The notes under the pieces were generated by a model that saw only the letters and a program-made list of their open reading frames with translations, ran no database searches and was not told where the DNA came from. This document shows, in pieces, positions 1,776-63,268 of a DNA stretch of 64,000 nt. Position 1 is the stretch's first letter. The number at the start of each line of letters is the position of its first letter. The translations under genes and the position numbers were made by a program. The DNA comes from Cytobacillus gottheilii (lineage in GTDB: Bacteria; Bacillota; Bacilli; Bacillales; Cytobacillaceae): the NCBI RefSeq assembly GCF_001636345.1, contig NZ_KV440945.1, positions 2,395,631 to 2,459,630 on the forward strand. Reading direction: 5' to 3'.

Positions 1776-2540
1776 TTATTTTGAAACACTTTGTTCCCCA
1801 AATATGGTAGAACGATGCTTCATACGATAACTATCTTCATTTAAATGAATGATTTCTACTCGGTGAAGAATCCTATCTAGAATTGCTGTTGTTATAGCTT
1901 GATCACCCAATAATTCTCCCCATTCTTTTGGTGCCTTATTAGAGGTCAAGATAATGGAAGACTGATTATACAAGTCATTAATTAAATGAAAGAACATATT
2001 AGCTTCTTGTTGATCCATTGCCATAAACATTAAGTCATCTATTATGACTAAATCAGCCTCTCTAATTCTTTTCATTCTTGCTTTTGACTTTCGTGTGATT
2101 TCTTCTGTTTTCAGGTTATGAATTAAATCTCCCATTGATGTGAATATCGCTTTATACCCTTGGTTAATAGCCTCTATTCCTAGGCCTACGGCCAGGTGAG
2201 TTTTACCTACACCTGGTGGCCCTAATAAAATCAAATTGTACAGCTGTTCTATCCAAGTTAAATCTTTTAATCTATTTAGTTGTTTGTTGCTTAAAGACTT
2301 TTGTTCTTTTAAATTAAACTCCTCAAGTGTTTTGCTGAAAGGAAAAGTTGCCCACTTTAATCGGTTGTTTAGTTGCTTTTCTTCTCTTCGAGTTTGCTCA
2401 TAAGAAGTGACATCTAACAGGAATTGAGTAAATGAAAGGTCTTTTTGCTCAGCTTCTCTGATCAAATGGGGGAGATGCTTGGCAGTTTCAACGAGTCTTA
2501 ACCCTTTCATTATGTCTTGTAATTGTTGGATTTGGCTCAT
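1776..2540 (-). CDS. istB: IstB, IS21 transposition helper ATPase
   Basis: AAA+ ATPase that works with IstA to select targets and activate strand transfer. 254 residues, normal for the family. Walker A GPPGVGKT lies at residues 107-114 and a Walker B LVIIDDLMF follows; the C-terminal part has the usual LTSNKAPKEWGE and LDRILHR segments. The ATG at 2538-2540 lies 2 bases after the istA stop. Its ribosome site GGAGG is embedded in the last codons of istA, so the two genes should be translationally coupled. Confidence 0.95.
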   Translation of the reverse strand: MSQIQQLQDIMKGLRLVETAKHLPHLIREAEQKDLSFTQFLLDVTSYEQTRREEKQLNNRLKWATFPFSKTLEEFNLKEQKSLSNKQLNRLKDLTWIEQLYNLILLGPPGVGKTHLAVGLGIEAINQGYKAIFTSMGDLIHNLKTEEITRKSKARMKRIREADLVIIDDLMFMAMDQQEANMFFHLINDLYNQSSIILTSNKAPKEWGELLGDQAITTAILDRILHRVEIIHLNEDSYRMKHRSTIFGEQSVSK

Positions 2541-2542
2541 CG

Positions 2543-4126
2543 CTATTCAACCTCCATTAAAACCGTGTAAGTATCTACTTTTCTTTTGTATGCTTCTGTT
2601 TCTAAAACCCATTCTGATAGCCTGTTCAAAGTCTTAACTTCTTTCTTTTTATCAATAACTGTTTCATGTACCTGGCGCTGACGTTTCACATATGCAATGA
2701 TATCGCCAAAATCAGTTGCACTGTATAATTTCCTTTTTAAACACTCTGCTAACGCTTTAGTCAGTACTTCGTTATCGATACCTTTTGTTTCGCGCAAGAT
2801 GATTTGCAACTGGTCTTTAATGTAACGAGGATTTTTTTCCCTAACCTTCTCTAAATATTTAAAGGCTAGTTCTTTATCTTCAAATCTCTCAGCCACTGTA
2901 TTAATGAATGCTCCAACACCTTTTGTACGATCCCTACTATGTTTTTTATCTTTTATTAACATCCCTTTCCCTTCGGGAATTGAATGTTTTGCAATAATTT
3001 CGCCAGTATCAGGTATATAAATAACTAATTCTTTAGTCTCCGTTTCCTTGATACATACTTTTTCATATTTGTTATAAGTTCCAAGTGGAAGAGAGTACCG
3101 ATTAGATTGGTAACGAATAGTATTGTCCTTATGAACACATCTTGCTATACTTATCTCATAGTTATTTTGAATATCTATATTTTGGGAGACTGGTTTTAAG
3201 TGTTGCTTTTCCAGGAGGAACACTTCGAATGGTCTCTTTTTTGTTGTATTGTGTATTTTATAGTTACCCGTTCTGTTCAGCCATTCCCATCCTTGCTCAT
3301 TCCAAGAGTCGATGTTATGAAACACTCTATGTTTGGCATAGTTTTGTTTGATAAATCCAACTACATTTTCTATTCTTCCCTTACTCTCAGGGTCAGCTTT
3401 TCTACAAACCCGAAGGTTTATTCCTCTGGATTCTCTATACTGCTGAAATTCTTTAGTTAAAATTAGATCTCCACCATTTTCGCTAACAACAATTAAACTA
3501 TCTTGGTCATAAACGATCTCATTGGTCATTCCTCCATACCATTTAAACGCGTTCTCATGGGCTTGTATAACATCCCGTGTTGTAAATGGTCTATCCAACC
3601 ACTCTTTATACTTTTGTCTAGAATGTGATAAGACAAAAGCTATAAAGTTGAGTTTGGCTTCCTTATTATCAACAGTTTTTTGTCTCGTATGACCAAAATC
3701 TACTTGCATTTGTTCTCCCATTGGGGGATCAGGAATTGCCTCATACATTCGAGGAGATGTTTCCTTATTTATTTTGTATTCTTCTCTTAATGCTTTTACA
3801 TATGTTCTTACTGTACTTTCTCCAACAGTTAGATCTTTATATTTCTCTAAAAGCCAATCATAAACTTGTGCTGCTGACATATCCGGATGCATTCTCAACC
3901 AAGATAAAATCAGTTCTTTATATGGATCTAATTTTTTCTTTTTATACTGAAGAGAATCAACCCATTCCGCCATCTCCGAAGGAGATCTCTTTAAGTGCCT
4001 GTAAACAGTTGTTCGAGAAACCCCTAACTTTTCAGCTATCTTTGTCTGACTAAATCCTTGCTTTAATAATTGCTTTATCTCCATGTACATTTCCCACTTA
4101 TCCACCTTCGCTAACCTCCACTGCAA
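2543..4126 (-). CDS. istA: IstA, IS21 DDE transposase
   Basis: Catalyses cut-and-paste or circle-mediated transposition of the element. 527 residues. An N-terminal helix-turn-helix (FSQTKIAEKLGVSRTTVYRHL, about residues 25-45) binds the element ends. The retroviral-integrase-like core has candidate catalytic residues D143 (QMQVDFGH), D207 (IVYDQDS) and E253 (KGRIENVVG). A Mu-transposase-like C-terminal beta domain contains RYQSNRYSLP. The frame is uninterrupted. A start at 4126 leaves about 115 bases to the right terminus, which holds the end-binding repeats and presumably the promoter. Confidence 0.95.
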   Translation of the reverse strand: MQWRLAKVDKWEMYMEIKQLLKQGFSQTKIAEKLGVSRTTVYRHLKRSPSEMAEWVDSLQYKKKKLDPYKELILSWLRMHPDMSAAQVYDWLLEKYKDLTVGESTVRTYVKALREEYKINKETSPRMYEAIPDPPMGEQMQVDFGHTRQKTVDNKEAKLNFIAFVLSHSRQKYKEWLDRPFTTRDVIQAHENAFKWYGGMTNEIVYDQDSLIVVSENGGDLILTKEFQQYRESRGINLRVCRKADPESKGRIENVVGFIKQNYAKHRVFHNIDSWNEQGWEWLNRTGNYKIHNTTKKRPFEVFLLEKQHLKPVSQNIDIQNNYEISIARCVHKDNTIRYQSNRYSLPLGTYNKYEKVCIKETETKELVIYIPDTGEIIAKHSIPEGKGMLIKDKKHSRDRTKGVGAFINTVAERFEDKELAFKYLEKVREKNPRYIKDQLQIILRETKGIDNEVLTKALAECLKRKLYSATDFGDIIAYVKRQRQVHETVIDKKKEVKTLNRLSEWVLETEAYKRKVDTYTVLMEVE

Positions 4127-59889: not shown

Positions 59890-61293
59890 TTATTGAATGA
59901 CTTTTAAGGCTTGCAGGATCATCTGCTCTTCTTCATCGGTAACTGTTCGAAGATCGATTTGCAGCTCTTCGTGTTTAATGCGAGTGACAATGGCAGGTTT
60001 TTCGTTCCGGAGTGCTTTTGCAAGCTGAATGGCTGACTTGGTTTGATGCTGTATGGCTATACAGCAGGATGGCAAATCAACGTCAGGCATCGTTCCTCCC
60101 CCAACATACGCGATGCTCTCAAAGATCTCAGCTTTATATACAGAAGTTAAAGCAGCGAGCTTATCCTTGAAGCGAAGCGCGCGATCATGCTGAAGATTTA
60201 ATGGAACCAGCAAATCACGCAGGACAGGAATCTTATTTAGCTCCTCTCCCCCTTTTGCATAATGCATTAATGTGCCTTCAAGTGCAGCTAATGTCATCTT
60301 ATCTACTCTTAGCACACGCGCTAGCTGATGCCTTTTCAGCTTTTGAATGAGCTCCTTTTTCCCTGCAATAATACCCGCCTGCGGCCCGCCAAGCAGTTTA
60401 TCACCGCTAAAAGATACAAGATGGACGCCTTGTGCTAATACTTCCTTTACAGTAGGCTCATCTCCAATGCCTTTACTTCGGAAATCAAATAAAGCGCCGC
60501 TGCCAAGATCTTCATAAAACAAGATATTATTCTCTGAAGCTAAGTGAGCAAGCTCCTTTGTTCCAACAGTATTTGTGAAACCAATCACTTTAAAATTACT
60601 TGTATGTACTTTCATGATCATAGCTGTTTCTGAATGGATGGCATTCTCGTAATCAGCTAAATGTGTTTTATTTGTGGTCCCTACCTCAATCAGTTTTGCT
60701 CCACTCTCTTCCATTATGGATGAGACACGAAAGGAGCCGCCAATTTCGACTAGCTGTCCTCTCGACACAATCACTTCGCTATCTTGAGCAAGTGCCTTAA
60801 GGATTAAATAAACTGCAGCTGCATTGTTATTCACAACCATAGCTGCTTCGGCACCTGTAATCGTTCTAATTAAGGTTTCAGCATGCACGTGCCGCGAGCC
60901 TCTTTCACCATTAAACAAATCATACTCAAGGTTTGAATAGGACTGAGCTGTTTCAACGACATGCTTCATTGCGTTCTCACTCATTCTTGCTCTTCCCAAA
61001 TTTGTATGGAGGATGGTGCCTGTGGCATTTATCGCTTTTTTTAATGTATATTGAAACTCCGTTTGAATGGCTTCCTCTACACGCTGAAAAATCTCATCAT
61101 AAAACAAGGCATTACCAGGTGCAGCACCATACCATTCACCTTGCAGCAAGAGACGGCGTATTTCAGTTATAACGGATTTCAGCCGGTTTGAAGCATATAC
61201 TGTATCGACACTATATTTTTCTGTTATCTCTAAAAAACAATGATGTTTTAATAATTCATGAATGGGCGGAATATTCTTTAATACTTCTTTCAC
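59890..61293 (-). CDS. selA: L-seryl-tRNA(Sec) selenium transferase
   Basis: PLP enzyme that converts seryl-tRNA(Sec) to selenocysteyl-tRNA(Sec) with selenophosphate. 467 residues from the GTG at 61293, 6 bases after GGAGGGG; the longer frame to 61308 covers that site. Seen: INATGTILHTNLGRA, VNNNAAAVYLILKAL, SRGQLVEIGGSFRV, EVGTTNKTHLADYE, EDLGSGALFD, and the PLP lysine near K299 in SFSGDKLLGGPQAG, then LARVLRVDKMTLAALE. Length and motifs are full, so it should be active. selB, selC and selD are not in the window. It lies between two UGA-containing genes, 1 kb from the SelW-like one. Confidence 0.97.
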   Translation of the reverse strand: MKEVLKNIPPIHELLKHHCFLEITEKYSVDTVYASNRLKSVITEIRRLLLQGEWYGAAPGNALFYDEIFQRVEEAIQTEFQYTLKKAINATGTILHTNLGRARMSENAMKHVVETAQSYSNLEYDLFNGERGSRHVHAETLIRTITGAEAAMVVNNNAAAVYLILKALAQDSEVIVSRGQLVEIGGSFRVSSIMEESGAKLIEVGTTNKTHLADYENAIHSETAMIMKVHTSNFKVIGFTNTVGTKELAHLASENNILFYEDLGSGALFDFRSKGIGDEPTVKEVLAQGVHLVSFSGDKLLGGPQAGIIAGKKELIQKLKRHQLARVLRVDKMTLAALEGTLMHYAKGGEELNKIPVLRDLLVPLNLQHDRALRFKDKLAALTSVYKAEIFESIAYVGGGTMPDVDLPSCCIAIQHQTKSAIQLAKALRNEKPAIVTRIKHEELQIDLRTVTDEEEQMILQALKVIQ

Positions 61294-61383
61294 CGCGGTC
61301 CCCTCCAATCTGTGGCAACTTTAGTATATCATTTTTCACACATAGGCATGAGCTGAATATATTATCGTTGAGGAGGTTTCATG

Positions 61384-61767: not shown

Positions 61768-61869
61768 GTCTTTTTCCAAACTCTAGTTAACATAATAATT
61801 TTATTGTATTTTAAACACTGTAAGACATTTAATAAATGATCTTCTCCTTTAATAACTAAATTAATAAAA

Positions 61870-61912
61870 AACCTTTCTTTATTTTAGCAAAAGAGCTTCA
61901 TAAAGAAAGGTT
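61870..61912. terminator. Terminator after the SelW-like gene
   Basis: AACCTTTCTTTA (61870-61881) pairs perfectly with TAAAGAAAGGTT (61901-61912). It lies 11 bases beyond the selenoprotein stop on the minus strand. Confidence 0.82.
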
Positions 61913-61922
61913 AACCTAGCAT

Positions 61923-62156
61923 TTATGCTTCTATTAGATCAATAATCTGCTGTGATTTTGGAAAAACACCTGTTTCCTTTTTCGAGTAAATATTCTCATT
62001 ATTCAATGTCACTTCAAATACACCACCTGAGCTAGGAATTAACTCAAGGCTAGTGATGTTTCCACGAAAATGTGTAAAAAGATCTTCCGCGAGACCCGCG
62101 GCTTTTGGTGCGTAGTTTCACATCATGCAAAATTCAATTTTAACTGTATGCTTCAT
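61923..62156 (-). CDS. SelW-like (Rdx family) selenoprotein, in-frame UGA at codon 13
   Basis: Reading through the TGA at 62118-62120 gives a 77-residue thioredoxin-like SelT/SelW/SelH protein: KHTVKIEFCMM, selenocysteine 13, NYAPKAAGLAEDLF, then ITSLELIPSSGGVFEVTLNN, YSKKETGVFPKSQQIIDLIE and a normal TAA. C10-M-M-U13 is the CxxU redox motif of SelW, where non-Sec homologues carry CxxC. SSGGVFEV and KKETGVFP are family signatures. AAGGAGG stands before the ATG at 62156. A SECIS-like hairpin follows the UGA. Likely role: thiol/selenol redox chemistry in the cytoplasm. ORF finders will miss or truncate it. Confidence 0.92.
62087..62101 (-). promoter_or_regulatory. SECIS element of the SelW-like gene
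   Basis: In the mRNA CCGCG (62101-62097) pairs perfectly with CGCGG (62091-62087) around loop GGUCU. The loop starts 21 nt after the UGA and begins with G, fitting the bacterial SECIS rule (small apical loop with G at position 1 or 2, 16-37 nt from UGA). The GGUCU loop also appears in the E. coli fdhF SECIS apical region. An all-GC stem is striking in this AT-rich DNA. Confidence 0.8.
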
Positions 62157-62257
62157 GTTTAAATCCTCCTTAATACTGTGAAAATTCACTAAACGTTCAC
62201 AATTAAGATTGTAGTACAACTTAAAGCTTTTGGCAATGTGATTGAATGAATACAATG

Positions 62258-63268
62258 TTATACCTCGCCTTTATCTCTGACCAATTTTTCTCGGTCAATG
62301 GTTCCAGGAGGCTGTTCAAGCCAATTATTTTTAATCATAATGTCGGCTCCTTGTTTTGCATACCTGGCAATTTCAAATGACAATCGCTCATAGTTGATGG
62401 CCAAATCACTGCGCTGACTGGCTGCAGCTGCTGTCGCATAATTGCCTGTTCCCGCAGCACTTAACAATGACATGTGAAACATCACTAATTGATCTGAAAA
62501 GATCTGTGTTGTTGTCTTTGTTACACATTCGTCGGGAGATGTAGGAGCTGAAATATTATTGTCTAATAAAGTACGGGTAAAGACAGCCATTTGTTTTTCT
62601 GAAATCTGTTTCCCCCGCAGCAAAAAATCCTGCACTTCAGTACGAGGTGATGTCTGTCCGAATGCCAAGCATAATTTTACGCCAATTGAATTGGTTTGAA
62701 TGTTTAGAAATAAATGAGATATTTCAATGGCATTTAATGGCCGTTTCTTAGAAAAAGGGTTAAGACCGCTTAAATACTGGCTCGAATCTACATAATCTGT
62801 TTCAGATGGTAGTGGAATATAAGGAGCTCTGACATATAATCCATTTTTTATCATTACTTTTAAGGTTGATTCATATAAGTTTCTTGTTTCTAGCAGTGCT
62901 TTTGAATAATATTCAACAATGTCTTCTCTTGCACTCATAGCAAGCATGCCGCTATAGCCTAACATGCCTGCTTTGGCCATGTGATTAATATATGTAACAC
63001 AAAAAGCATCAGAAAAAAGCCGTGGTGCGTTTAAATTTACGTCTTTCTCAGTAAAGCCTGTTGGTTTAGCGTAATTTTCCTTTTCGAATAAACGGGTCAG
63101 TTTTTCAATATGTATGGATGCAATGTCTAATGCAGATTCTATTGTCTTCTTTATTTCCTGATCTTCTGCATATCTCAACATATGTGACAGGATACAGCAA
63201 GACATACTGTCGTTTTGATAGGAAGTCCACAGAATGCCAACTTCTGAAGCCATTAATGGTTGTTTCAT
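62258..63268 (-). CDS. DUF3231 family protein (tandem ferritin-like domains)
   Basis: 336 residues made of two similar helical halves (about 1-165 and 170-330). Half one: ASEVGILWTSYQNDSMSCCI and YINHMAKAGMLGYSGMLAMS. Half two: NAIEISHLFLNIQTNSIGVK and MFHMSLLSAAGTGNYATAAA. This duplication is the DUF3231 pattern, related to spore coat CotF-like ferritin folds. The end has WLEQPPGTIDREKL, typical of the family. GGGAGG precedes the ATG. Probably sporulation-associated; function not established. Confidence 0.85.
   Translation of the reverse strand: MKQPLMASEVGILWTSYQNDSMSCCILSHMLRYAEDQEIKKTIESALDIASIHIEKLTRLFEKENYAKPTGFTEKDVNLNAPRLFSDAFCVTYINHMAKAGMLGYSGMLAMSAREDIVEYYSKALLETRNLYESTLKVMIKNGLYVRAPYIPLPSETDYVDSSQYLSGLNPFSKKRPLNAIEISHLFLNIQTNSIGVKLCLAFGQTSPRTEVQDFLLRGKQISEKQMAVFTRTLLDNNISAPTSPDECVTKTTTQIFSDQLVMFHMSLLSAAGTGNYATAAAASQRSDLAINYERLSFEIARYAKQGADIMIKNNWLEQPPGTIDREKLVRDKGEV

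Follow-up and report, generated by a model that had tools for sequence, protein, structure and literature searches.

The selW gene and its surroundings

The window, the whole stretch of 64,000 nucleotides from Cytobacillus gottheilii that was analyzed, carries on the minus strand at 61923-62156 a gene predicted, from its translation and from profile matches, to encode a SelW-like selenoprotein of 77 residues with a CMMU motif. The initial annotation of this DNA gave no strand for the gene, and described an ATG preceded by a ribosome site; reading by eye bears this out, with AAGGAGG at 62171-62165 (minus strand) and the ATG 8 nt downstream. Translation of 61923-62156 on the minus strand gives MKHTVKIEFCMM*NYAPKAAGLAEDLF...IDLIEA*, and the full reading is MKHTVKIEFCMM-TGA-NYAPKAAGLAEDLFTHFRGNITSLELIPSSGGVFEVTLNNENIYSKKETGVFPKSQQIIDLIEA-TAA, with the TGA at 62120-62118, the TAA at 61925-61923, and 77 residues when the TGA is taken as U. 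This in-frame UGA (62118-62120, minus strand) is codon 13, the putative selenocysteine codon, and forms the fourth residue of the motif C10-M-M-U13 near the N-terminus, which is the CxxU position that had been claimed for it. The further 60 codons mentioned in the same annotation were a loose count, as 64 codons follow the TGA and 50 follow the stretch that was quoted. In the list of open reading frames under table 11, selW is represented by a 45-residue frame (62118-62255) alone, which ends at the TGA, and that list has no frame of at least 40 residues for the part of selW 3' of the TGA.

Profile searches place the read-through protein in the Rdx family (PF10262, 81.5 bits against a cut-off of 22.6) and in the SelT/W/H family (TIGR02174, 65.3 bits against a cut-off of 34.2), and these matches support the SelW-like/Rdx identity. 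NCBI has models for the SelW-like family, and the narrower SelTWH model NF041051 was just missed by the read-through protein (85.9 against a cut-off of 88). Eight distinct solved sequences match the selW product at E values up to 0.1, and two of these homologs shown in the alignment, 3dex and 2fa8, have a Cys at the position of the UGA. As this Cys might suggest, the gene could be a pseudogene, a TGA mutation having disrupted what was a Cys-type SelW gene, or the TGA could be a sequencing error, and one relative among the 103 selW copies collected here does have TGT at this place. However, the TGA is common to 102 of the 103 copies, which come from 100 genomes, the codon changes after the TGA relative to the nearest named relative are mostly synonymous, and the stem described below is conserved. 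We rejected a pseudogene or an error on these three grounds and regard either as extremely improbable. The nearest relative is a named Cytobacillus gottheilii selW, from which the window gene differs after the UGA by 15 synonymous and 5 non-synonymous codons; the corresponding counts for four more distant copies (28/15, 15/21, 23/17, and 13/23, uncorrected) show little by themselves.

Directly upstream of selW, between it and selD, a profile match identifies a gene for a DUF3231 protein (62258-63268, minus strand), and the end of another gene likewise lies on the selD side of selW. An HSP20-like gene occupies the opposite strand between selW and selA. About 3.4 kb separates selW and selD at the C. 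gottheilii locus L124, and in several named relatives selW either has selA on one side and a divergent selD on the other or directly follows selB, in the order selB-selW-selA. A terminator-like 13-bp inverted repeat is found 3' of the selW stop codon (61866-61912, minus strand; arms 61870-61882 and 61900-61912), with four U residues directly after it, and selW is therefore probably transcribed alone, as a single-gene transcript. This repeat is not among the terminator-like sites of a consensus scan. The consensus scan for promoters gives a weak promoter-like TTGCCA-17-TACAAT at 62208-62236 (minus strand), in a region that has 7 such sites as compared with 5.3 ± 2.5 in shuffles. Far from selW, at 1776-4126 on the minus strand of the window, a two-gene insertion-sequence module looks, by eye from its translations, like IS21 istA/istB.

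The hairpin 3' of the UGA codon

After a gap of 16 nt from the UGA, the selW message would form the hairpin CCGCG-GGUCU-CGCGG (62087-62101, minus strand), a candidate SECIS element on comparative evidence. Its 5-bp stem (arms 62101-62097 and 62091-62087) opens with the 17th base 3' of the UGA, and its loop, GGUCU (62096-62092), lies at a gap of 21 nt, so that the 5-bp GC stem, the loop, and the starting point given in the initial annotation all hold. Folded alone, a 46-nt stretch has no gain in stability over its dinucleotide shuffles (z 0.05; 93 of the 200 do equally well or better), and because single-sequence folding is unexceptional, the hairpin is convincing through comparison only.

The comparison used the 102 TGA copies, with the TGT copy excluded. 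Their stems are fully paired in 99 cases if G-U pairs are included and fully Watson-Crick in 94, and 3 of the 102 contain a mismatch. Shuffling synonymous codons within alignment columns gave means of only 73.9 fully paired stems (maximum 82) and 54.2 Watson-Crick stems (maximum 67), and none of 2000 shuffles reached the observed counts, in a test that leaves the relatedness of the rows uncorrected. In a second control, with codons redrawn from elsewhere in the selW genes, the mean was 14.8 fully paired stems and the maximum 26 in 500 trials. The stem pairs switch jointly, C-G with U-A and G-C with A-U or C-G, and in one copy (L097) they do so even along with amino-acid changes (Val and Thr). 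A tree test does correct for relatedness, but is small. When the stem columns were left out of the tree, with one copy containing Ns (L113) omitted and pair states taken from 101 rows, the second pair (C-G/U-A) yielded 7 independent comparisons on supported branches, of which about 6 changed together, none changed in opposite ways, and 1 showed no difference (median p 0.031, range 0.031–0.063); the fifth pair yielded 1 supported independent comparison only. The loop is also kept, with G as its second base in all 102 TGA copies and the form NGU in 100 of them, the commonest loops being AGUUU (n = 73) and GGUCU (n = 14). Among named genomes, all 21 selW copies have fully Watson-Crick stems with NGU loops, and 17 of the 21 60-mers are absent from the first set. 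As read from these alignments, the hairpin in the window is kept by compensating changes. Taken together, the matches to curated families, the same TGA in nearly every copy, and a stem that outdoes the synonymous-codon shuffle argue that the read-through frame is more than a product of chance.

A hairpin of this kind might also serve as an intrinsic transcription terminator or attenuator, and the consensus scan does list it among the terminator-like sites of both strands, in the minus-strand case owing to a AAGATCTTTT tail. Yet in 103 of 103 copies it lies inside a conserved reading frame at a single distance from the UGA, and its NGU loop is a feature that a terminator does not need. Nor does a conserved U run follow the GC stem, as the bases 3' of the stem vary across the 103 copies with no T run starting at the stem (by eye). 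We therefore rejected a terminator, the chance of which appears negligible, in favor of a SECIS element. According to PMC1088965, a bacterial SECIS is a hairpin directly 3' of the UGA with a small apical loop containing G; the selW hairpin agrees with this description by comparative evidence, though not by folding energy alone. The excerpts of PMC12013277 and PMC9312934 contain general statements on SECIS elements.

Selenocysteine machinery and the spread of selW

The genome of the window's own strain (G000; 4.59 Mb, 99.86% complete) was searched for the factors needed to decode UGA. Their absence, specifically that of selB, selC, and selD, had been named in the initial annotation as a finding that would speak against a selenoprotein, and all three are present. 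The gene for selA, L-seryl-tRNA(Sec) selenium transferase, lies within the window at 59890-61308 on the minus strand (TIGR00474, 564 bits against a cut-off of 267.9; PF03841, 481.2 bits). Outside it are selB (C1:2531958-2533817; 374 bits, over the cut-off), the tRNA-Sec gene selC (C1:2675847-2675939; 58.3 bits, over the cut-off; tRNA-SeC with anticodon tca by ARAGORN), and selD (L122:1675-2742; 406 bits), which lies about 1.5 kb past the window's end and contains one in-frame TGA in KAGUGCK. The window itself has no Rfam match at gathering scores and no tRNA by ARAGORN, in keeping with the location of selC elsewhere in the genome. A selenouridine synthase is present as well.

Besides selW, two genes of this genome, selD and fdhA, have a Sec-type TGA. 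The selD gene thus appears to be a selenoprotein gene too, and its stem, CGCA-AGTTT-TGCG, lies farther from the UGA than that of selW and shares its loop class; among named loci, 34 of 35 selD genes have the TGA and, at a constant distance 3' of it, a 4-bp stem closed by an NGU loop, the reading of the 35th (L140) being displaced by an alignment gap. The formate dehydrogenase gene (L164, about position 1924) has its TGA in ARIUHSSTVAGLAP, followed by the hairpin TGCC-GGTCT-GGCA, and is preceded by what looks by eye like an fdhD-like gene. It was matched in pieces, the best of which scored 213.2 bits, and we take its product to be FdhA from the Sec context and by comparison with the formate dehydrogenase motif. 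The best Fdh-alpha match in the genome lacks a TGA and falls just under the cut-off (650.8 against 666.25 bits).

In a sample of 151 genomes, consisting of the window's own and 150 relatives, selW was found in 100, with TGA in 102 of the 103 copies and TGT in one (G026). Over the cut-off, selB occurs in 112 of the 151 genomes (G003 and G081 match part of the profile only), and selA in 113. A cross-tabulation by hand shows selB in 100 of the 100 selW genomes and selW in 0 of the 39 genomes where selB does not reach the cut-off. As 100 of the 112 genomes with selB over the cut-off have selW, Sec decoding is usually accompanied by SelW in this Bacillus-related sample; the other 12 have no selW match, which makes selW dispensable for Sec use. 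These data also bear on whether the UGA is read without SelB, by near-cognate reading or suppression of some other kind, or acts as a genuine stop that ends a short peptide. Either might be entertained since the single-sequence fold is unremarkable. But selW is confined to genomes with selB over the cut-off, the pairing of the stem is kept, and the second loop position is G in every TGA copy. SelB-free reading and a true stop are accordingly very unlikely, and we rejected the former in favor of selenocysteine insertion.

Selenoproteins had been called uncommon in Bacillaceae, a statement that fails for the present clade, where selW reaches 100 of 151 genomes as compared with 57 of 398 genomes in a class-wide draw (56 of these over the cut-off). 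The closest named locus by SelA is that of Cytobacillus gottheilii, at 82% identity. Among 38 named selA loci, selW lies upstream of selA within the flanks in 21, always with TGA, and is found there in none of the other 17; one of the 38 (L130) has no match to selB, selW, or selD, and its contig is short upstream of selA.

The sole Cys (TGT) copy (L086, at G026:C18:15750-16350) has lost 2 of the 5 stem pairs, in a genome that retains selA and selB. We interpret the G026 copy as a natural change between Sec and Cys. A divergent SelW subgroup (L043, L049, L050, and L062) has CTAU in place of CMMU or CMQU, and in three genomes (G054, G073, and G085) the CTAU copy is found beside a usual selW copy.

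Known SelW proteins, the proposed route, and a UxxU paralog

SelW-like proteins are a known bacterial selenoprotein family, as the initial annotation stated and as excerpts of PMC1794560, PMC1088965, and PMC2398784 describe. Among these, 48 SelW-like genes with bacterial SECIS elements come from the Sargasso Sea (PMC1088965), 427 SelW-like CxxU sequences from ocean samples (PMC2398784), and 10 are listed as bacterial SelW-like selenoproteins (PMC1794560). The window gene matches the bacterial family (Rdx, PF10262; TIGR02174) in its CxxU motif, its size, its Rdx profile, and its UGA with an immediate hairpin, and by this anatomy, which shows no departure from the family, it is another species' copy of a known family. 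Campylobacter jejuni SelW (CJnc60) likewise has about 80 residues and one UGA, and its translation has been demonstrated: ribosomes occupy the message, termination peaks after the stop codon of the full-length frame, and peptides from the part following the Sec site were found (PMC11955535). That organism belongs to another phylum, and for the window gene full-length translation is a prediction. Mammalian selenoprotein W (2npb), one of the eight solved sequences, is a remote match to the window protein (residues 4-63, E 0.0059), with the difference that SECIS elements of eukaryotes are located in the 3' UTR (PMC1088965). In the open-access literature, we found no specific report on Cytobacillus selenoproteins or on SelW in Bacillales. 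The nearest source for Bacillales is a passage of PMC1794560 that counts 3 selenoproteins in 3 families without naming the families, and PMC13188914 makes no mention of SelW or Bacillus.

It is established that bacteria use a SECIS and dedicated factors to insert Sec at UGA (PMC1088965), and we suggest that 61923-62156 on the minus strand is almost certainly a SelW-like selenoprotein gene using this route. From known biology, SelD would make selenophosphate, SelA would convert Ser-tRNA(Sec) to Sec-tRNA(Sec), and SelB would bind the hairpin just 3' of the UGA and bring Sec to it. The predicted product is a small Rdx-family protein with a CxxU redox center, a motif that suggests redox work; by the redox chemistry of known systems, the center would probably cycle between a selenenylsulfide and the selenol/thiol form. 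Bacilli use bacillithiol, and as a guess, bacillithiol or thioredoxin could be the partner of the SelW product. The function of bacterial SelW-like proteins is called unclear in the relevant passage of PMC1088965. Given how regularly SelW accompanies Sec decoding in our sample, Cytobacillus or a relative is a possible model for the job of bacterial SelW. The window gene is a further, well-supported selenoprotein gene, cut short under the standard code and easily overlooked by gene-finding software, and the concept of Sec decoding is unchanged by it.

Two further genomes of the same class, G292 and G312, which were the two sampled from their genus, contain a second SelW copy with two in-frame TGAs, reading EYUTGUGFLPKAV (L172, G292:C30:600-1300; L173, G312:C12:8100-8800). 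A CxxU copy is present in each genome as well, as is selB over the cut-off, and no further UxxU copy was seen among four genomes examined of the G292/G312 family. The UxxU motif has been reported for a Prx-like family (PMC2398784), and the pertinent part of that paper gives none for SelW. We consider it reasonably probable that the SelW family of Bacilli includes a UxxU paralog beside the CxxU form, in which a single NGU hairpin would serve two UGAs and the product may have a diselenide center. The UGAs start 9 nt apart, and one hairpin, CCGTC-AGTYT-GACGG, of the same class as that of selW, follows the second TGA. The two UxxU genes, of 81 codons each, differ from one another by 29 synonymous and 18 non-synonymous changes.
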